From a virus: a stretch of 21,787 nucleotides of DNA. Positions 2,873 through 13,932 of the stretch are shown piece after piece. Position 1 is the stretch's first letter. Each line of letters opens with the position of its first letter. Location: the IMG/VR virus record IMGVR_UViG_3300046357_000032, positions 1 to 21,787 of that record, one strand, 5' to 3'. Position numbers and translations under genes: made by a program. Under the pieces are notes generated by a model, which ran no database searches, was not told the DNA's origin, and saw only the letters and a program-made list of their open reading frames with translations.

Positions 2873-4156
2873 TTATCCCATCCAACCAGCACCTTCGGCA
2901 ACTGCCCGCGGTTTTTTACGCTGTGCTGGCTCTTTAATCATCAATGCAATATAACGGAACGCGTCGGCGCCGTGGGAATATTGATCGTGTAATGGCGACT
3001 TGCCAAACTGGCCGGTTTCGGGATCGACTTCGTAACGGTAATGGCGAAGGCAGTTCAAGCCATCGGCGCAATTGTCACGGTCAAACCAAAAGTTCGGGAA
3101 CAGCGTTCTGGCCGCGTTGATCGAATCGACCACCGGAACCCGCGGCATGATGCTGGTTTTAAATCCTGACGACCTAACGATTTCCTCAATCGTGCGACCG
3201 GCTGCCGCCAACGTTTGGTTTTGCGCGTCGTGCGGCAGCCAAATGGTGTCGTAAACATAGCCAAACGTTTGAAGTTGGGCCAGGTAACTGCTCATGGTGC
3301 GCTGGCTGCCCTCAAAGTATCGGATCACCCTGGTTTCCATGCCAATGAATTGGACGAACCACCAGGCTGTCGCGTCCGACCAACCCAGGTCGCAAACTGC
3401 GTGAACCGGTTTGGTTGGATCATAAGGCACTTTGGTAATGCGGTTGTCGTTTTCGGCAATCTGCATTTCGTTGCCAAAAATGGCGCCATCCACCGACTTG
3501 CGGCACATTCCTTCCCAAACCTGGTTGTATGCGTTAAGGTCGCGGTCTTTCAGTGAATCCTTTTCCAACCGTAGCGTTTCAGGAAACCAGGGGTTATCCG
3601 ACCAGTTAATTCGCATCACAATGCAGTCGCGTGGCGGCTTTACAACAAACCGCTGGTAAGTTTCGTCGGTTTCCAGGTCAGGGTTGAATGAAACCCATAT
3701 CTCGCTGCCCTGTTTGCGAATCGTTGGAATCAGGATGTTCCAGGACAACCGGCTGACGGTTTGGGCTTCCTCCACCCAACAAATATTTACACCTTCGAAC
3801 GACTTAATGTTCGTCGGGTTGTTTTTCAAGCCCACAAAAGAAAACTCCGTCCCGTTGATTCCCCTCACGGCCGTTTGCGTAATCTCGTAAAAGGGCAGCA
3901 ACCCCAACGCTTCGATTTGATCGCATAGAAGTTTGTGGACGGATTCCTTGATACTGGCCTGAAATTCTCGCGCACACAATATCCGAATGGGGCTTTTGGC
4001 CCCCAGGATAAGCAAAGCGCGGGCAATACCCCAGGATTTCGCGCCGCCGCGTCCACCCAGGCAAACTTTATATCGCGCCTTTTTGAACAACCCTTGCAAC
4101 TTGACCGGAAATTCGGCCTTTGCAACGGCTCTTTCAATTGTCGCTGTGGTATCCAT
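2873..4156 (-). CDS. terL: Terminase large subunit (Terminase_3/PBSX type)
   Basis: The product of 427 residues is the packaging motor ATPase and nuclease. Walker A is GGRGGAKS (residues 34-41), Walker B is ICWVEEA (125-131) with the catalytic glutamates, and the coupling motif is SFNP (156-159). The C-terminal RNase H-like nuclease shows acidic blocks at VCDLGWSD, PHDAQNQ and HDQYSHGADAFRY. I chose ATG 4156. A frame-open TTG at 4168 adds four residues but has no better ribosome site. The start lies inside the small terminase gene (23-nt overlap), indicating coupled translation. Length fits the family (about 420-450 aa). The strategy (pac or cos) cannot be decided from the sequence. Confidence 0.94.
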   Translation of the reverse strand: MDTTATIERAVAKAEFPVKLQGLFKKARYKVCLGGRGGAKSWGIARALLILGAKSPIRILCAREFQASIKESVHKLLCDQIEALGLLPFYEITQTAVRGINGTEFSFVGLKNNPTNIKSFEGVNICWVEEAQTVSRLSWNILIPTIRKQGSEIWVSFNPDLETDETYQRFVVKPPRDCIVMRINWSDNPWFPETLRLEKDSLKDRDLNAYNQVWEGMCRKSVDGAIFGNEMQIAENDNRITKVPYDPTKPVHAVCDLGWSDATAWWFVQFIGMETRVIRYFEGSQRTMSSYLAQLQTFGYVYDTIWLPHDAQNQTLAAAGRTIEEIVRSSGFKTSIMPRVPVVDSINAARTLFPNFWFDRDNCADGLNCLRHYRYEVDPETGQFGKSPLHDQYSHGADAFRYIALMIKEPAQRKKPRAVAEGAGWMG

Positions 4157-7526: not shown

Positions 7527-7886
7527 TCATTTGAGGAATCGAAGTTTATACAACGTGGAATTTATCAGGTCGGCGATTTCGTCAACCAGGTTTTGCAATT
7601 CCGAATCCTGTGGCAAATCCTTGCGGGAATCCTCCACAAAATCTTTCAGGCTTTCCAAGTATTTCACCGGCTCTTTGGCGTTGTGAAATTCCTGGGGCCA
7701 CTTTTTGATTTGGCCATAACGGCCCATGTACGCTTCCGCGTATTGGTCAACCAGGTCGATGATTTCGTTGTAATACGTGTTCAACGCTTGGTGAACGGAA
7801 AAGGAATCCGTACTCAGGTGCATGAAGTGTGCAACTGTTCCTGAATGCAGCATGGCCGCAATAAATTCGGATGATTCGTCTTCCAT
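7527..7886 (-). CDS. Ferritin-like/Dps-related protein (DUF5856-like)
   Basis: The 119 residues form a predicted helical bundle. The first part (AHFMHLSTDSFSVHQALNTYYNEIIDLVDQYAEAYMG, residues 19-54) closely follows the Dps/ferritin-like pattern in which His, Asp and Glu of helices A and B form a metal or nucleotide site: H20, H23, H32, E41, D44, D47, E51 are candidates. Phage proteins with this pattern are usually grouped as DUF5856. Whether it stores iron, protects DNA or has lost metal binding cannot be seen here. The length is shorter than host Dps (about 160 aa), since helices C and D are reduced. It follows the HNH gene after a 41-nt gap. Confidence 0.7.
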   Translation of the reverse strand: MEDESSEFIAAMLHSGTVAHFMHLSTDSFSVHQALNTYYNEIIDLVDQYAEAYMGRYGQIKKWPQEFHNAKEPVKYLESLKDFVEDSRKDLPQDSELQNLVDEIADLINSTLYKLRFLK

Positions 7887-8311: not shown

Positions 8312-8388
8312 TTTCCGCAATTTCTACATTTGGTCAAAAGTGTAAAAACGGGGCGTTTGCAATAAACGCAAAGATATTGGGTCATCAT
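8308..8388 (-). CDS. 26-aa zinc-ribbon peptide
   Basis: Minus-strand ATG 8388 opens a 26-codon frame, MMTQYLCVYCKRPVFTLLTK followed by CRNCGK. It has two CxxC knuckles (CVYC and CRNC) separated by 11 residues, which is a minimal zinc ribbon. Its start overlaps the ninB stop (ATGA) and its stop overlaps the HNH start (ATGA), so both boundaries show translational coupling as elsewhere in this operon. AAAAGGA lies upstream. The coupling and paired knuckles make it convincing despite its size. Function is unknown; single zinc-ribbon peptides may bind nucleic acid or assist the neighbouring nuclease. Confidence 0.7.
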   Translation of the reverse strand: MMTQYLCVYCKRPVFTLLTKCRNCGK

Positions 8389-8786
8389 GCTTCAATTCCT
8401 TTTTCAGCACACCAGGCCAACAACCATTCAATGAATTCGGTGGCGTCGGATATGGTAAATTTGTGCGTTTGCCAACCCAACTGGACAACGCGCTGGCCAT
8501 CCAGGCTTGGCGACACCTTGCCAATCTTTCGGTCGGTTTCGTGCGCCCATTGGTCGATCAACAACCGTTTCCAATCGTCGGCCGTCCAAGTTGAACCGGC
8601 CACGCGCATGGCCAAGTAAATTTGATGAATGATGGCGTGGAACATATCGTTTTGATCGCTTGACCTGGTAGCCCGTTTAATTTCCAAGCGCATTTTGTGG
8701 CCAGCCATCAAATTGTTTTTAACTTCCGGCCAAATGTTATCCATCAAAATCTTGGCTTGCTGCGCGTTGTGCAATTCGTAAATCAT
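8385..8786 (-). CDS. ninB: NinB / lambda Orf-like recombination protein
   Basis: The 133-residue protein matches the NinB family (lambda Orf), a recombination mediator that binds single-stranded DNA and substitutes for RecFOR. Visible family features are RSSDQNDMFHAIIHQI (about 41-56), TADDWKRLLIDQW (68-80), and the C-terminal part SDATEFIEWLLAWCAEKGIE. The length is close to the usual 140 aa. The start at ATG 8786 overlaps the stop of the VRR-NUC gene (ATGA). It belongs to the leftward replication/recombination block. The phage also has an ERF/exonuclease set on the rightward operon, so both mediator and annealing activities are present. Confidence 0.9.
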   Translation of the reverse strand: MIYELHNAQQAKILMDNIWPEVKNNLMAGHKMRLEIKRATRSSDQNDMFHAIIHQIYLAMRVAGSTWTADDWKRLLIDQWAHETDRKIGKVSPSLDGQRVVQLGWQTHKFTISDATEFIEWLLAWCAEKGIEA

Positions 8787-9070
8787 TTCAACACCCCCAA
8801 CACGCGCAAAGCGGAATCCACACCGTCCACAATGGCCAAGGCGCCGCCGCGCCAGGCGCCGTGCCACTTCAGTTGGTTTTCAGTCAATCGACGCGCTGAC
8901 GGCACTTTCCGGCCGTCCTTGACTTCCATAAGCAATGTCTTGCCCTGGAATCCAACAAGCAAATCCGGTACGCCTTTGCCAACACCCGCCAAAGACTGAA
9001 CCGTAGCGCCAGCCGCCCGCAATGCCTGGACAACTTGTTCATGGTTTGCGTCGATCTTGGCTGCTCTCAT
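8783..9070 (-). CDS. VRR-NUC domain nuclease
   Basis: The 95-residue protein is almost entirely a VRR-NUC/PD-(D/E)xK fold: E11 in the first helix, GVPDLLVGF with D36, then LLMEVK giving E49 and K51, followed by LTENQLKWH. This arrangement is the standard active site of stand-alone viral VRR-NUC enzymes, which can cleave branched DNA such as Holliday junctions. ATG 9070 overlaps the stop of the upstream gene (ATGA). It likely works with NinB and the HNH enzyme in processing recombination or replication intermediates. Confidence 0.88.
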   Translation of the reverse strand: MRAAKIDANHEQVVQALRAAGATVQSLAGVGKGVPDLLVGFQGKTLLMEVKDGRKVPSARRLTENQLKWHGAWRGGALAIVDGVDSALRVLGVLK

Positions 9071-9378: not shown

Positions 9379-9587
9379 TGAATGCGACCTCTCATCGCTG
9401 CAATGTGCGCCCTTTGTTGATCCATCAATTCATCACGTTGTTGGCAAACTTGCTGATATAAGTTGTATAAAGTTTCAACGCCATTTGACAATCGCCGAAG
9501 TTCGGCGGCCGCAAGGCATTGGGCTTCCAGGCTGGCATCGTTGCATTCAAGGTAATCGCATAATTGCAAAAGTTCTTCGCGTGTCAT
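9375..9587 (-). CDS. Small helical hypothetical protein (70 aa)
   Basis: The 70-residue protein starts MTREELLQLCDYLECNDASL and is helical, Leu/Gln-rich, with a coiled-coil-like second half (ELRRLSNGVETLYNLYQQVC). GAGG upstream serves ATG 9587, and both ends overlap neighbours by ATGA. It is probably an accessory early protein of the replication cluster, with no motif that gives a function. Confidence 0.72.
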   Translation of the reverse strand: MTREELLQLCDYLECNDASLEAQCLAAAELRRLSNGVETLYNLYQQVCQQRDELMDQQRAHIAAMRGRIQ

Positions 9588-9973
9588 TTCGGCATCCTCA
9601 TTTTTTGAGTCATTTCGCGCAACATGGCCAAGGCTTTTTCTTTGGCTGCGGTGGCTGCAATTTGTTCGTGAACGGTAGGCTGCCTGGTTATCAACGTTTC
9701 GGGCTTGTCAGGGATGCGCGGGGCTTCACCCAAAAGTTTTTTAAACGCCAGGGCTGATGGTGGCCGGTCAGGGTTCATGTGCTGCAACGCGTAATCCATC
9801 TTTGGCCGGTACGTCAGGCCGCGTCCGCATTCCTCAATCCACACCTGGCGAACCAAATTGGGGTCAACATCGCGCCAATGGTTGGCAAACGTGGCGCCAT
9901 AAATCGCGTTCATTTTGCTGAACACGTAATCAAAGCCGCTGTCGGCATCACAAAAGTCGCTTGCGTTCCACAT
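9584..9973 (-). CDS. Putative helicase-loader, lambda P-like (129 aa)
   Basis: The start ATG 9973 has the strongest ribosome site in the region (GGAGGTG, 6-nt spacing) and overlaps the end of the DUF1376 gene. The region from YGATFANHWRDVD (about 25-37) through VRQVWIEECGRGL and MDYALQHMNPDRPPSALAFK follows the C-terminal pattern of replication protein P: W, then a helical block, then PPS-x-x-xFK/F. P-type proteins load host DnaB helicase onto the origin. The match is partial and based on pattern and on position right after a DUF1376 initiator-type gene. The C-terminus is helical and charged (EKALAMLREMTQKMRMPK). Confidence 0.55.
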   Translation of the reverse strand: MWNASDFCDADSGFDYVFSKMNAIYGATFANHWRDVDPNLVRQVWIEECGRGLTYRPKMDYALQHMNPDRPPSALAFKKLLGEAPRIPDKPETLITRQPTVHEQIAATAAKEKALAMLREMTQKMRMPK

Positions 9974-10700
9974 CGGACACCTCCAAGGTTTTTTCAGGTT
10001 TTGCCCAAAATGGCGCTGGCGCTGGTTTCGGTGTTGCCAGGCCGCGGGTCAATTCGCCCATTGCGTTCTGCCTGGCTTCCGATGCTGTCACCTGGTCTTT
10101 GGCCCAACTGGCTTTGAAACTTTGCCAACCACGGGTGCAACACATCGCCAATGCCTGTTCCAAGGTCATTGCAGCCTTTTGGGCCTCTTTTTCAATACCA
10201 ACCAAGGCCACGGTAGTCACCGGCGCCCGTTTGGCCTTCCTGATGGCTAAAAACGATTCCCAAACATCATTGGAAACGCCGTCAGGCGTGGCGGTGACAA
10301 CCGCGTTTGTTTTCTTGGGTTTTGTATCTTGGGTCTTGGGTCTTGGGTCTTGTATAGCATTGCATTCGGATTGCGGTCGCATTGCGGTCGCATTCCAACG
10401 GGCCTGGGCGCTGGCTTTGGCCTTTTCGCTTTTATCTTGAATGGCCTGAATTTCACGGCCAACACGTTCCGACCACCAACCGCCGCCGATCAATTCAAAA
10501 AATTCACGCAATACGTTTGCAATGCTTTCGGAATGCGAACGCATACGAATCAACCTGGCAATTTCGCCCACGTCTTCCGGTAATGGTTTTTCGTGAAGGT
10601 AACACCAATCAAGCATTCGGCGATAAGCTAAATCCTCTGATTCGTCCAGGTGTGCGGTGTGACTTTGATAGTCACCTATGTTGAATTGGTAATAGTGCAT
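9948..10700 (-). CDS. DUF1376 replication protein (initiator/primosomal type)
   Basis: The 250-residue protein begins MHYYQFNIGDYQSHTAHLDE, then DLAYRRMLDWCYLHEKPLP, the hallmark of DUF1376, the N-terminal winged-helix-like domain of many phage replication proteins. Residues ~100-130 are a low-complexity linker encoded by tandem DNA repeats. The C-terminal half (DVWESFLAIRKAKRAP, WQSFKASWAKDQ) resembles DnaT/O-like C-terminal domains, and the last 30 residues are Pro/Lys-rich. It is probably the origin-binding or primosome protein acting with the lambda P-like product. I chose ATG 10700, with AAGGTG close upstream. Longer starts (10715, TTG further up) add a poorly conserved leader. Confidence 0.8.
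   Translation of the reverse strand: MHYYQFNIGDYQSHTAHLDESEDLAYRRMLDWCYLHEKPLPEDVGEIARLIRMRSHSESIANVLREFFELIGGGWWSERVGREIQAIQDKSEKAKASAQARWNATAMRPQSECNAIQDPRPKTQDTKPKKTNAVVTATPDGVSNDVWESFLAIRKAKRAPVTTVALVGIEKEAQKAAMTLEQALAMCCTRGWQSFKASWAKDQVTASEARQNAMGELTRGLATPKPAPAPFWAKPEKTLEVSDVERKRLL
10327..10391. repeat. Tandem 7-bp and 11-bp repeats inside the DUF1376 gene
   Basis: On the plus strand TCTTGGG occurs three times in tandem (10327-10347), followed by a partial copy (TCTTG). A further TCTTGGG is present at 10313-10319. Eighteen bases further, the 11-mer ATTGCGGTCGC is repeated twice (10370-10380, 10381-10391). Neither unit is a multiple of three. The array encodes the linker of the replication protein. 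This resembles the iteron origin inside lambda gene O, or a slippage-prone tract. Confidence 0.85.
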
Positions 10701-10803
10701 TAACCCACCTTTCATCCCACCAAAAAAAGGAAACAACGGAAGGCGGGTGGGGCGCTTTTCGGGTGGCTCATGACTTCCACCCTATCCGTGCTTCGCAAAC
10801 GTT

Positions 10804-10962
10804 TTATTTTTTAAACCACTTCGGACGCAATGATTTCAACTGCCACACCCGTGCCGGTGGAACATCATTCCCCCATTGGCTTACGGCCGCCCTGGTAATT
10901 CCCAACAGTTCGGCCAACGCCTTGGCTGATCCAGCCAGTTTGATTGCTTTTTCTTTGTCCAT
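10804..10962 (-). CDS. Cro-like repressor (P22 Cro type), 52 aa
   Basis: The 52-residue product (MDKEKAIKLA... to ...LRPKWFKK) contains a helix-turn-helix at about 13-31, AKALAELLGITRAAVSQWG, followed by NDVPPARVWQLKSL. The AVSQWG-x-x-(V/I)P-x-xR-x-(Y/W)Q pattern is that of P22 Cro. It binds operators in the divergent region and switches early transcription. It is the first gene of the leftward operon. The ATG lies exactly 6 nt after the -10 box of the predicted pL, so the mRNA should be leaderless. No SD-like sequence is correctly spaced. No cI-type repressor is visible in the window, so it may be the only early switch here or a partner lies outside. Confidence 0.85.
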   Translation of the reverse strand: MDKEKAIKLAGSAKALAELLGITRAAVSQWGNDVPPARVWQLKSLRPKWFKK

Positions 10963-10968
10963 CTTTCG

Positions 10969-10997
10969 ATGTTAAGCGGCCTTGCGTTGTGTGTCAA
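10969..10997 (-). promoter_or_regulatory. Leftward promoter pL for the Cro-like gene
   Basis: Minus strand TTGACA (10997-10992), 17-nt spacer, TAACAT (10974-10969). Transcription should begin at or next to the A of ATG 10962. The -10 overlaps an operator-like site. It would drive the repressor and the replication genes to its left. Confidence 0.75.
10972..10985. promoter_or_regulatory. Operator-like site OL (imperfect)
   Basis: TTAAGCGGCCTTGC matches the perfect site at pR1 in 11 of 14 positions. One half-site, TTAAGC, is intact. It overlaps the pL -10 box in the same register as the sites at pR1 and pR2, as expected for autorepression by the Cro-like protein. Confidence 0.6.
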
Positions 10998-11007
10998 TAG
11001 CAACAAA

Positions 11008-11027
11008 CCCCCTTAAAGTTAAGGGGG
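11008..11027. promoter_or_regulatory. Perfect 20-bp palindrome between divergent promoters
   Basis: CCCCCTTAAAGTTAAGGGGG has perfect 9-bp arms around a 2-bp centre. It sits between the two -35 boxes, with its centre about 55 bp upstream of the pL start and about 60 bp upstream of the pR1 start. It lacks a T tract, so it is not a convincing terminator. It could be an activator site or a second regulator's operator. Confidence 0.6.
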
Positions 11028-11042
11028 CTTTACAAATAACGT

Positions 11043-11071
11043 TTGACAATGTTGTTAAGCGGGCTTAATAT
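11043..11071 (+). promoter_or_regulatory. Rightward early promoter pR1
   Basis: TTGACA (11043-11048), 17-nt spacer, TAATAT (11066-11071): a near-consensus sigma70 promoter. The predicted start is at about 11077-11078, on the A of an ATG CCC TAA mini-ORF. It drives the 11121-14966 operon. Confidence 0.82.
11055..11068. promoter_or_regulatory. Operator OR1 (perfect inverted repeat)
   Basis: TTAAGCGGGCTTAA: TTAAGC and GCTTAA flank a 2-bp centre. The site covers the spacer and the first three bases of the pR1 -10, so occupation would block RNA polymerase. Copies lie at pL (11/14) and pR2 (12/14). The likely ligand is the Cro-like protein encoded next to it. Confidence 0.75.
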
Positions 11072-11077
11072 TCACCC

Positions 11078-11111
11078 ATGCCCTAACAAATTGCACGGGG
11101 TCTTTTAAAAG
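11078..11111 (+). promoter_or_regulatory. pR1 leader with ATGCCCTAA mini-ORF and CTTTTAAAAGG element
   Basis: The transcript is predicted to begin AUGCCCUAAC, a two-codon ORF. It is followed after a spacer by GGGG and then CTTTTAAAAG (11102-11111), a 10-bp palindrome whose right half is part of the ribosome site of the next gene. The same elements recur at pR2. CCC and GGG can pair in a short 5' hairpin. Confidence 0.6.
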
Positions 11112-11120
11112 GAAATCAAA

Positions 11121-11711
11121 ATGTCAAACACTCAATACCTCTCATGTGCCGAAACCGCAAAATTGGTTCGCGCCGCCCTCAAAGAATCTTTCCCTGGTGT
11201 GAAGTTCAGCGTCAAGTCCAGCACATACGCTGGCGGCGCCAGCATCAATGTTTCGTACATCGACGGCCCAACAGCCGCCCAGGTCGAAGCGGTGGCCAAG
11301 ACTTTCCAGGGTGCTTACTTCGACGGCATGACAGATTACAAAGGCAGCAATTACAACAGCCTGGACGGCCAGCCCGTTCGCTTTGGTGCTGATTTTGTTT
11401 TTGTAAGCCGCCGGTTTACTACCCCGATCCTGACCAGCATTTTTGTTGAAACTTGCAATTACTACGGTTTCGACAACGAAATCCTGATCGACGGCGGCGG
11501 CCAATATTTCGGTGCTTACATCAAAGCGGTTGGCCCCAACGCTGACAGCGAAGCCCGCGGTTTTAGCACTTCGGACATTGAGCGAATTATTCGCCAACGT
11601 GTTGGTGAATACAGTATGGACGACGTGGCCCCAAGCGCCACATTGGCCCGCGTTGCCTTCCAGGGCGACGACGGTTACGGATGGAATTCAATTGGCCGCA
11701 TGGCCGCATAA
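11121..11711 (+). CDS. LPD29-domain-like early protein (196 aa)
   Basis: First gene of the rightward operon, with AAAAGGA upstream of ATG 11121. The N-terminal ~80 residues (LSCAETAKLVRAALKESFPG followed by VKFSVKSSTYAGGASINVSY and DGPTAAQVEAVAKTFQGAYF) match the Large Polyvalent Protein-associated Domain 29 pattern. LPDs were named from very large phage/plasmid polyproteins that also carry anti-defence and DNA-processing enzymes, and stand-alone LPD29 proteins are common in phage early regions, function unknown. The C-terminal half has Gly/Tyr/Asp-rich stretches and no catalytic motif I recognise. There is no signal peptide. As the first protein made, a host-takeover or anti-defence role is plausible but inferential. 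Confidence 0.75.
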   Translation: MSNTQYLSCAETAKLVRAALKESFPGVKFSVKSSTYAGGASINVSYIDGPTAAQVEAVAKTFQGAYFDGMTDYKGSNYNSLDGQPVRFGADFVFVSRRFTTPILTSIFVETCNYYGFDNEILIDGGGQYFGAYIKAVGPNADSEARGFSTSDIERIIRQRVGEYSMDDVAPSATLARVAFQGDDGYGWNSIGRMAA

Positions 11712-11721
11712 GGGGAACGCC

Positions 11722-11820
11722 ATGAACCGCGAACCAACAGATTGGGAAGTTGTGTTGATGGTGCTGGTGGCAGCACCGGCCATCTATGTTTTATTGTGGC
11801 TTGGAATGGCCATCTTTTAA
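11722..11820 (+). CDS. Single-pass membrane peptide (32 aa)
   Basis: ATG 11722 follows AAGGGGAACGCC, a good ribosome site just after the preceding stop. The 32-residue product is MNREPTDWEVVLMVLVAAPA followed by IYVLLWLGMAIF: a short acidic/polar head and one hydrophobic helix of about 22 residues that reaches the C-terminus. The same AAGGGGAACG start signal precedes the next gene. It is probably a small inner-membrane protein of early infection; a superinfection-exclusion or membrane-modulating role is only a guess. An upstream-extended reading of the same frame overlaps the LPD29-like gene and has no ribosome site. Confidence 0.68.
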   Translation: MNREPTDWEVVLMVLVAAPAIYVLLWLGMAIF

Positions 11821-11830
11821 GGGGAACGAA

Positions 11831-11998
11831 ATGACAGTAAGAATCACCAGGGTGCATCGCGGGGGCAGCGTGTTCTACGCCGCCACCATCCGCGGCGTTT
11901 ACTTGGAACGCGCCAGCCTTGCCGAATTGCGTGAAGCCATTGCGGTTCGTGAAAGTTTTTTAAGAATTTTTGCGGAATCTGTTGACAGCGCCAGTTAA
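11831..11998 (+). CDS. Small early protein (55 aa)
   Basis: ATG 11831 has AAGGGGAACGAA directly upstream. The 55 residues (MTVRITRVHRGGSVFYAATI, then RGVYLERASLAELREAIAVR and on) look like a beta-hairpin followed by an amphipathic helix. This is a fold seen in many tiny phage regulators and inhibitors, but the family is not recognised. Its last codons and stop form part of the -35 box and operator of the second rightward promoter, so gene end and control site share sequence. Confidence 0.7.
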   Translation: MTVRITRVHRGGSVFYAATIRGVYLERASLAELREAIAVRESFLRIFAESVDSAS

Positions 11999-12011
11999 GT
12001 TGGCTTAAAAT
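11982..12011 (+). promoter_or_regulatory. Second rightward promoter pR2
   Basis: TTGACA (11982-11987), 18-nt spacer, TAAAAT (12006-12011). It lies inside the 3' end of the preceding gene. The predicted start falls on the A of the mini-ORF ATG at 12018. It repeats the architecture of pR1 and would boost the recombination genes. Confidence 0.72.
11995..12008. promoter_or_regulatory. Operator OR2
   Basis: TTAAGTTGGCTTAA differs from OR1 at two positions (TT for CG in the left half and centre). It has the same distance (10 bp) to the downstream ATGCCCTAA and the same overlap with the -10. Its first bases include the TAA stop of the 55-aa gene. Confidence 0.68.
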
Positions 12012-12017
12012 CAAACC

Positions 12018-12041
12018 ATGCCCTAACGGGTCTTTTAAAAG
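12018..12041 (+). promoter_or_regulatory. pR2 leader, copy of the pR1 leader
   Basis: ATGCCCTAAC, then GGG and CTTTTAAAAG (12032-12041) with the ribosome site of the next gene. Compared with pR1 the two leaders are the same except for a 10-bp insertion (AAATTGCACG) in pR1 between CTAAC and GGG. CCC-UAAC-GGG can form a 3-bp hairpin at the 5' end of the transcript. Confidence 0.6.
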
Positions 12042-12051
12042 GAATATTGAA

Positions 12052-12372: not shown

Positions 12373-12699
12373 ATGAAAAAAATGATTCGCATTGATCTTG
12401 ACGGCCCTTACTACCCAAAACCAACGGTTTACCAACGCGTTTGGAATTGCCTGGTTGTGGTGGTGATTGCTGTCGGTGTTGTCGCTTGGTTGTCCGGTTG
12501 TTCGACAACCACGACCGGCGGCGCCCAAGATTTGGTGCTGGACAAAAGTATCCAGCCCATGTCGCGGAATGAAGTCGTGTCGGCCATTGGCGATTGCCAG
12601 GCCAACGGGCTTCGCGCCGTGTTGATGTACGGAAAACGCAAAGTCAACGGTTACACCGCTGACGTTGTGATTGACGTTACTTGCGCCCCTAAATGGTAA
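12373..12699 (+). CDS. Lipoprotein-like membrane-anchored protein (108 aa)
   Basis: The N-terminus is polar (residues 1-25). A hydrophobic helix follows (about 26-40, LVVVVIAVGVVAWL), ending in LSGC, a lipobox with C43, and then STTTTGG. The mature part (about 65 aa) has two more cysteines and the block GDCQANGLRAVLMYGKRKVN, then GYTADVVIDVTCAP, which I recognise as a conserved small phage protein of unknown function. The pre-lipobox region is longer than a standard signal peptide, so it may be an anchor with or without lipidation. I prefer ATG 12373 to a TTG at 12358. It lies directly upstream of the recombination genes and overlaps no signal of theirs. Confidence 0.68.
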   Translation: MKKMIRIDLDGPYYPKPTVYQRVWNCLVVVVIAVGVVAWLSGCSTTTTGGAQDLVLDKSIQPMSRNEVVSAIGDCQANGLRAVLMYGKRKVNGYTADVVIDVTCAPKW

Positions 12700-12710
12700 A
12701 GGAAAAAATT

Positions 12711-13313
12711 ATGGAACAGTCATTCAGCAAAGTCGCTTCGGCCCTGGTCAAAGCGCAAAAAGAATTTGGCCCTGCGCTGAAATCATCCAGCAACCCGCAT
12801 TTCAAATCGCGTTACGCCGACCTGGCCGCTTGCGTTGAAGCCGTGATCGAAGGCTTGAACAACAACGGCATTGCATTGACGCAACGCGTCAGTTCATACG
12901 ACAACGGCGTGATTGTGGAAACCGTGTTTATTCACGAATCCGGCGAAGTTATAAATTGCGGCCAACTGCACGTTCCGGCCACCAAACAAGATGCCCAGGG
13001 TTATGGCAGCGCGTTGACCTATGCCCGCCGCTATTCGTTGATGGCAGCCTGTGGAATCGCACCGGAAGATGACGACGGCAACGCGGCCAGCAAACGCCCA
13101 ACAGCGCCAGCAATCCCAACGCCTGACATTACCGACCACCTGGCAGCCATCCAGGCCAGCGCAAACAGCGAAGAATTGGCGGCAACATTTAAAGATGCGT
13201 TTGACGCTTGCCAGGGCAACCAGGTATTGCAAGCCAAAGTAATGGCAGCCAAAAAAGAACGCGTGGCCCGCGCCAAAAAAGATTTATCAACCAAAGGAAA
13301 TGAAAATGTCTGA
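12711..13313 (+). CDS. erf: ERF-family single-strand annealing protein
   Basis: The 200-residue protein has the ERF signature: SKVASALVKAQKEFGPALK at the start, SRYADLAACVEAV, and the central DAQGYGSALTYARRYSLMAA followed by CGIAPEDDDGNAA. ERF proteins (P22 Erf) form rings on single-stranded DNA and anneal complementary strands, replacing lambda Beta. After the core there is a Pro-rich linker and a helical, Lys-rich C-terminal domain. I chose ATG 12711 (preceded by AAAGGA) rather than ATG 12693, which overlaps the lipoprotein stop. The gene runs into the exonuclease gene with an 8-nt overlap, the normal pairing of annealing protein and exonuclease. Confidence 0.92.
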   Translation: MEQSFSKVASALVKAQKEFGPALKSSSNPHFKSRYADLAACVEAVIEGLNNNGIALTQRVSSYDNGVIVETVFIHESGEVINCGQLHVPATKQDAQGYGSALTYARRYSLMAACGIAPEDDDGNAASKRPTAPAIPTPDITDHLAAIQASANSEELAATFKDAFDACQGNQVLQAKVMAAKKERVARAKKDLSTKGNENV

Positions 13314-13932
13314 CGAAATTGAACAACGCACCGACGAATGGTTTGCCGCCCGCCTGGGTAAAGTCACCGCGTCCAAAGTGGCCGACGTGATGGCCCGCAC
13401 AAAATCGGGTTATTCCGCAACGCGTGAAAACTACATGGCCCAACTGGTGGTCGAACAAATCACCGGCACACGCCAGGAATCGTTCACCAACAGCGCGATG
13501 CAATGGGGAACCGACCAGGAACCCTTTGCCCGCGGGGCATACGAAGCCGCCACCGGCAACATGGTTGAGGAAGTGGGTTTTGTAAACCATCCAACCATTG
13601 CGATGGCTGGCGCGTCGCCTGACGGCCTGATTGGCGACAACGGATGCGTGGAAATCAAATGCCCGAACACGGCCACCATGATTGAAACGCTGCTGACCGG
13701 CGCCGTGCCGCAAAAGTATTTCGCGCAAATGCAATTTCAAATGGTTTGTGCTGGCCGCGCCTGGTGCGATTACGTGGTGTTTGATCCACGGATGCCAACC
13801 AAAGCGCAACTGTTCATTAAACGCGTACCTCGTGACGAAGTTTTCGTGGCCGATATGGAAGCGGAAATCATCAAGTTCCTAGCCGAAACCGCGGTCAAGG
13901 TCGATCAACTTAAAAAAATCATTGGGGAATAA
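13306..13932 (+). CDS. YqaJ/lambda-exonuclease-type recombination nuclease
   Basis: The 208-residue protein is a YqaJ viral recombinase-family 5'-3' exonuclease. RTDEWFAARLGKVTASK opens the fold and GTDQEPFARGAYE follows. SPDGLIGDNGCVEIKCP supplies D106, E116 and K118 of the PD-(D/E)xK site, and QMQFQMVCAGRAWCDYVVFD completes the core. It makes single-stranded DNA for the ERF protein. ATG 13306 is preferred over ATG 13300 because AAAGGA is properly spaced. All catalytic residues are present, so it should be active. Confidence 0.92.
   Translation: MSDEIEQRTDEWFAARLGKVTASKVADVMARTKSGYSATRENYMAQLVVEQITGTRQESFTNSAMQWGTDQEPFARGAYEAATGNMVEEVGFVNHPTIAMAGASPDGLIGDNGCVEIKCPNTATMIETLLTGAVPQKYFAQMQFQMVCAGRAWCDYVVFDPRMPTKAQLFIKRVPRDEVFVADMEAEIIKFLAETAVKVDQLKKIIGE

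Follow-up and report, generated by a model that had tools for sequence, protein, structure and literature searches.

How does a phage hold its early genes in check when it carries the cro gene and the operators of a lambda- or P22-type switch, and no repressor gene is detected? The question is raised by virus record IMGVR_UViG_3300046357_000032, a fragment (21.8 kb) the 21,787 bases of which were analysed at full length, and are here called the window. Relatives were loci of the IMG/VR collection, recruited via the 196-aa LPD29 gene of the window (at least 80 loci). Whole-genome comparisons were made with relatives of 30-35 kb, none with stated completeness (n=24 for motif, RNA and NinB/Erf searches, n=21 for integrase and S24 searches).

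Promoters and operators of the early region

A preliminary description of this DNA had proposed that three promoters, pL, pR1 and pR2, each with a TTGACA -35 box, share one type of 14-bp operator, whose last three bases also open the -10 box. The coordinates bear this out at all three promoters, and the grades of match, from the perfect OR1 to OR2 and OL, are those given at the time (Table 1). The distance from operator to ATG, described as constant at the two right promoters and as long as 10 bp, is indeed constant, but consists of 9 intervening bases, and is found at pL as well. The ATG beyond the pL operator is the start codon of cro. The ATGs near the right operators do not mark gene starts: AUG-CCC-UAA is read at both pR1 and pR2, and the genes begin at 11121 and 12052. 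The notion of a single site per promoter holds in that one site overlaps each promoter, but an extra conserved site, OM, resides in the cro-pR1 interval, and had been overlooked. Lambda and P22 have three operators per early promoter; here there is one each at pL, pR1 and pR2, plus OM.

Table 1. Features of the early control region and of the flanking genes, in window coordinates
Feature	Position	Strand	Remarks
NinB-like gene, leftward arm	8385..8849	-	PF05772, E 2e-17
Possible P-like helicase loader, pL operon	9584..9973	-	phrog_109, E 0.005, weak match
O-like replication gene (DUF1376), pL operon	9948..10736	-	PF07120; phrog_678 replication initiation O-like, E 2e-16; putative start codon
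int-alpA-like RNA between cro and O-like gene	10717..10792	-	RF02996, 28.8 bits, below the gathering score of 35.8
cro, 52-aa P22-type Cro	10804..10962	-	Start codon at predicted +1
pL -10 box TAACAT	10969-10974	-	6 nt ahead of cro ATG
OL operator TTAAGCGGCCTTGC	10972-10985		11 of 14 positions as in OR1; weakest site
pL -35 box TTGACA	10992-10997	-	17-bp spacer
OM operator-like site TTAAGGGGGCTTTA	11019-11032		Third best in window by operator matrix
pR1 -35 box TTGACA	11043-11048	+	Read from sequence
OR1 operator TTAAGCGGGCTTAA	11055-11068		Perfect TTAAGN4CTTAA
pR1 -10 box TAATAT	11066-11071	+	17-bp spacer; three bases in common with OR1
Leader RNA 1, AUGCCCU...GGGGUCUUUUAAAAGG	11078..11112	+	Hairpin 11080-11101, then ribosome-binding site
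First rightward early gene, 196 aa, LPD29 domain	11121..11711	+	PF18847, E 6e-25
pR2 -35 box TTGACA	11982-11987	+	Read from sequence
OR2 operator TTAAGTTGGCTTAA	11995-12008		2 differences from OR1; perfect TTAAGN4CTTAA; includes stop codon of upstream ORF
pR2 -10 box TAAAAT	12006-12011	+	18-bp spacer
Leader RNA 2, AUGCCCUAACGGGUCUUUUAAAAGG	12018..12042	+	Stem GCCC/GGGU, UAAC loop at 12020-12031
Gene downstream of pR2, 68 aa	12052..12258	+	Without family match
Erf recombinase, rightward arm	12693..13313	+	PF04404, E 3e-24
YqaJ exonuclease, rightward arm	13300..13932	+	PF09588, E 4e-32

The sites are graded. OL matches 8 of the 10 fixed positions, and ranks sixth in the window, unexceptional by score alone, with a matrix built from promoter-anchored sites, and hence from sites preselected by position. 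Of 35 distinct pairs, ten rows of which were anchored by hand, 31 have OR1 nearer to the consensus than OL, and four are ties. An exception, L011, has no leader anchor and stands outside this count.

Several pR2-type promoters (L003, L007, L057, L060, L061, L075, L104) carry an inverted repeat, AGCCNN..NNGGCT, within the promoter spacer. Its arms show matching changes between phages (CG/CG, CA/TG, AA/TT, AG/CT), and the repeat is weakly present at pR2 of the window. One possibility is a terminator for the transcript coming from upstream, overlapping with the promoter.

Distribution of the motif

Within the window the exact sequence TTAAGN4CTTAA occurs at OR1 and OR2 and nowhere else, while its reversed control pattern scores 0. 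Seven matches differ from OR1 at three positions or fewer, a number never reached in 100 shuffles. The loose form with two mismatches occurs 7 times in the window against 4.1 expected. As the loose motif is not rare, the case rests on the exact sites, their register and their conservation. A motif search of the genome and of related phages, set beforehand as a check, sustained the proposal: TTAAGN4CTTA gave 53 hits in the 24 relatives, all near the cro/pR region, and the control gave 5. Sites of the relatives with a matrix score of 11 or more, which is about the OM level or better, occur outside the control region at 0.003 per kb. The register is maintained too: most relatives have OL at a fixed distance of 9 nt from the start codon of cro, and at the first rightward promoter OR1 overlaps the -10 box.

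The Cro protein and its probable operators

The product of cro belongs to family PF14549 (P22_Cro; E 5e-13, 49 bits, above the curated cut-off of 30.2), and matches the P22 Cro structure (PDB 1rzs) with an E value of 8e-4. In nearly all relatives cro lies on the strand opposite to the LPD29 gene. A matrix made from the right-hand, promoter-anchored sites of the relatives only, with no P22 sequence used, was run along the P22 immC stretch. Among about 4,490 positions, the six annotated P22 OL/OR operators take ranks 1, 2, 3, 5, 7 and 10; P22 OR3 and OL1 are perfect TTAAGN4CTTAA sequences. As far as sequence can tell, the sites of the window are the known P22 operator type.

Operators seem to change together with the recognition helix of Cro, in few independent switches, and three clear classes can be told apart. 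Helices of class I (ITRAAVSQW and the like) pair with TAAG-N4-CTTA. The helix DVKQSVVSNW pairs with TCACA..TGTGA at both OL and OR (L058, L077; close variants in L086 and L102), the helix LDPSAISRW with TGAG-N5-CTCA (L067, L078). OL and OR share the operator type within one genome. For lambdoid phages, recognition helix and half-site are reported to change together by Hall et al. 2005, as cited in PMC4488713; the same co-change is observed here inside one uncultured phage group. The P22-type Cro, the match to P22 operators and the co-change all back the earlier proposal that one operator type, paired with Cro, would serve the three promoters.

A fourth site

OM is the most conserved element of the cro-pR1 interval, the cro start codon aside. 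It reaches 1.95 bits per column in 18 non-redundant regions, where OR1 has 1.64 and OL 1.45. The distance from OM to OR1 is 36 bp in most relatives and 22 bp in others, and in the latter sub-group OM overlaps the pR1 -35 box, much like lambda OR1/OR2. OM was not seen in phages which carry the swapped operator. The conserved block extends beyond the operator, and its centre is GGGG; in Yersinia phage PY54 Cro binding was lost when the centre was GC (PMC4488713). Because of this result and of the GGGG centre, OM, albeit operator-like, may serve a protein other than Cro. Two further roles were discarded. By inspection, no convincing -35/-10 pair is kept in relatives which would make OM part of a further promoter, and the CCCCCTTAA/TTAAGGGGG repeat of the window, suggestive of an intrinsic terminator, is not kept in relatives either.

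The high conservation of OM, which exceeds that of the promoter operators, and its unusual centre might also be taken to mean that another regulator, encoded by the host or by the phage, binds all these sites, and that Cro acts elsewhere. Such a regulator is very unlikely, since the operator type follows the Cro helix at OL and OR alike, and the motif is that of operators already known for this protein family.

Genes of the two arms

The early genes are arranged in the lambdoid order. Leftward, cro is followed by the O-like gene, the weak P-like match and the NinB-like gene; Erf and YqaJ reside in the divergent recombination arm, where small genes separate the LPD29 gene from Erf. pL would drive replication genes besides cro, a point missed in the preliminary description. 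Among the 24 relatives of 30-35 kb, NinB is present in 17 and Erf in 22. The LPD29 domain (large polyvalent protein associated domain) is here a stand-alone protein of 196 aa, with relatives in at least 80 viral contigs. The int-alpA-like RNA is found in 20 of the 24 relatives, in three of them above the gathering score, and shortly downstream of cro where checked. It may be an attenuator or a terminator, since a U-rich stretch is found at its end.

The predicted starts of the early transcripts

In 49 of 54 distinct relatives, phages with other operators included, a distance of exactly 6 nt separates the -10 box from the cro AUG downstream. Given this spacing, the cro mRNA of the window is probably leaderless, the AUG being the start of transcription. 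A leaderless cro mRNA has been mapped by RACE in PY54 (PMC4488713).

Rightward transcripts would differently begin with AUGCCCU at the 5' end and a short hairpin, followed by UCUUUUAA and a ribosome-binding site. Of 104 leaders, 17 have the fourth stem pair changed from C-G to G-C on both sides; a looser search pattern gave 19 of 110. Among 65 short-loop hairpins, 47 have a UNAC loop and 12 a GNRA loop; UNAC loops mimic GNRA loops (PMC5311481). The leader is also found inside operons with no promoter in front, and copies in L084, L086, L102 and L119 follow hairpins of the GGGGCTTCGGCCCC type. The pair swap, the UNAC and GNRA loops and the occurrence away from promoters denote an RNA element of its own. 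Folding of single leader sequences gave results no better than shuffles, and the evidence is the pair swap. No known RNA family in Rfam corresponds to the leader, and a DNA search for the cassette in named phages gave no match.

The AUG-CCC-UAA sequence was considered as a conserved start-stop mini-ORF, and rejected. The stop at the third codon is present in 71 of 93 AUG leaders and absent from 22, leaders with a GAAA loop never have it, and the leader also exists without the AUG. A UNAC/GNRA hairpin explains the sequence better.

The UCUUU of the leader resembles boxA. In ribosomal RNA leaders boxB precedes boxA (PMC6614801). This order, together with the likeness of UCUUU, makes antitermination one possible role of the leader, albeit a speculative one. 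Location points to another direction: the leader is always next to a ribosome-binding site, and a role in translation or mRNA stability fits better than antitermination. The leader could be a new regulatory RNA, made of a 5'-terminal hairpin with a GNRA-like loop and of UCUUU, in the boxB-then-boxA order, which either mediates antitermination or stabilizes or translates early mRNA, the operators being parts of promoter-operator-leader cassettes. We regard this reading as doubtful.

Promoter, operator and leader are common to pR1 and pR2, and OR1 of a relative (L001) is identical to OR2 of the window. The likeness of the two promoters could hence reflect a recent duplication of promoter plus leader, and their common register descent, not regulation. 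The hypothesis is at odds with the register of OL, kept on the opposite strand where there is no leader, with operators that are maintained while their surroundings diverge, and with leaders found without promoter or operator. As the whole explanation duplication is highly improbable, though duplication and function are not mutually exclusive.

Repressor and integrase genes

The window and the 21 relatives of 30-35 kb gave no match to a tyrosine integrase (PF00589) or to an S24-type repressor. The same searches were positive in Xanthomonas phage PBR31 (MT119766), a temperate relative with a portal 49.5% identical, which carries both genes. In PBR31 the layout is the usual one, the repressor gene being located between the PL and PR sides; a perfect TTAAGTGAGCTTAA closely precedes the repressor start, and the PL side has sites similar to it. 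The cro gene of PBR31 (L135) is located at the very start of the record (3-209), where it lacks annotation. Phage MW202520, with a portal 66% identical, has the back-to-back layout, cro and erf being divergent, with operator-like sites in both promoters, and no cI-type (S24) repressor or tyrosine integrase was detected in it. Two more operator-like sites of this phage (L131), TTAAGCTATCTAAA and TTAAGCTAACTAAA, are located at 4098-4111 and 7748-7761, away from the cro/erf interval. Rhodoferax phage P26218 was discarded as a model of the region, the portal being related, but the replication module different. PBR31 and MW202520 together suggest that cI was lost, rather than absent from the outset.

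Might this still be a normal immunity region, unusually arranged, in a fragment or remnant of a temperate phage? According to this view, the sites are used by a CI-type repressor encoded elsewhere, or lacking an S24 domain. In its favour, operators of this type serve c2 of P22 and not just Cro, both proteins go with such sites in temperate PBR31, and the window is incomplete. A distant repressor lacking the S24 domain could have been missed, as the window is a fragment and the completeness of the relatives is unstated. Against this stand searches that find both genes in PBR31, and neither in the window, the 21 relatives and MW202520. Moreover, cro and the first rightward gene adjoin in most relatives, with no repressor gene in between. 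On balance, this view is unlikely to be right. Since no CI-like repressor or integrase is detected, the region is better seen as a Cro-only brake than as a lambda-type switch, and the life style is probably strictly lytic, though lysogeny without integration is conceivable.

A proposed circuit with Cro alone

We consider it quite likely that the region controls the early genes of a phage that is related to the lambda/P22 type and probably strictly lytic, where Cro is present, CI is not detected, and Cro acts as the lone negative-feedback brake. Sites, register, conservation, P22 type, co-change and the failure to detect cI and integrase come from sequence comparison; from these we infer binding, repression and its order, a cro mRNA without leader, and strictly lytic growth. 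pL, with cro, the O-like, P-like and NinB genes, would correspond to lambda PR, and pR1/pR2, with the LPD29 gene, Erf and YqaJ, to PL of lambda and P22. With no cI gene in between, PL and PR stand back to back in about 160 bp. Upon infection the host sigma-70 RNA polymerase would fire all three promoters, and cro would be read from an mRNA beginning at its AUG. Cro, probably as a dimer, would then bind TTAAG-N4-CTTAA over the spacer and the -10 box, and block the polymerase. The near-consensus OR1 and OR2 would be filled first, the weaker OL last. As OR1 is closer to the consensus than OL, the rightward arm would be shut first, cro and replication last. The outcome would be a negative feedback that sets in with delay and acts on recombination, on replication and on cro, with OM as an additional candidate Cro site.

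Comparison with known systems

The P22 immC region (c2, cro, OL1-3, OR1-3) shares with the window the PF14549 Cro, the TTAAG-N4-CTTAA operator and the gene order cro, O-like, helicase. In P22 too, Erf resides in the other early arm. In contrast, PL and PR of P22 are separated by c2 and have three operators each, and the P22 cro mRNA carries a leader. The window features no detected c2-type repressor, back-to-back promoters, one site overlapping each plus OM, and a probably leaderless cro. The Yersinia telomere phage PY54 (PMC4488713) is alike in that Cro acts at a single operator, and its cro mRNA is leaderless, as that of the window probably is. However, PY54 is a temperate phage with one site in the genome, and the target of its Cro is cI and apparently not cro, whereas Cro of the window would repress itself and two other promoters. 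PBR31 has a similar P22-like portal, a cro gene heading the replication arm and a perfect TTAAGN4CTTAA adjoining the repressor start, and differs in having an integrase and an S24 repressor, with the repressor gene between the PL and PR sides. As to lambda OR/OL, Cro shuts off early leftward and rightward transcription there, as it would here, and the 22 bp from OM to OR1 in one sub-group resemble the spacing of neighbouring operators. Unlike lambda, the window has no detected CI, no three-site operators, and another operator sequence.

The operator type, the Cro family, the single-site action of Cro and the leaderless cro mRNA are already known singly. What is new, among the open-licence papers searched, is their use without CI in a large, apparently lytic group, with graded single sites and specificity classes. 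The group is water-borne, and seems incapable of hiding in the host. Dozens of relatives in public viral contigs, with several specificity classes, make it a natural series from which rules of Cro-DNA recognition may be drawn, and the region itself would be a minimal negative-feedback circuit with graded sites. If the proposed reading is true, the region shows what remains of the lambda/P22 switch in the absence of lysogeny: the CI half is gone, Cro and its operators are kept. Cro and operators under selection without CI would argue that the early-gene brake exerted by Cro matters in its own right.
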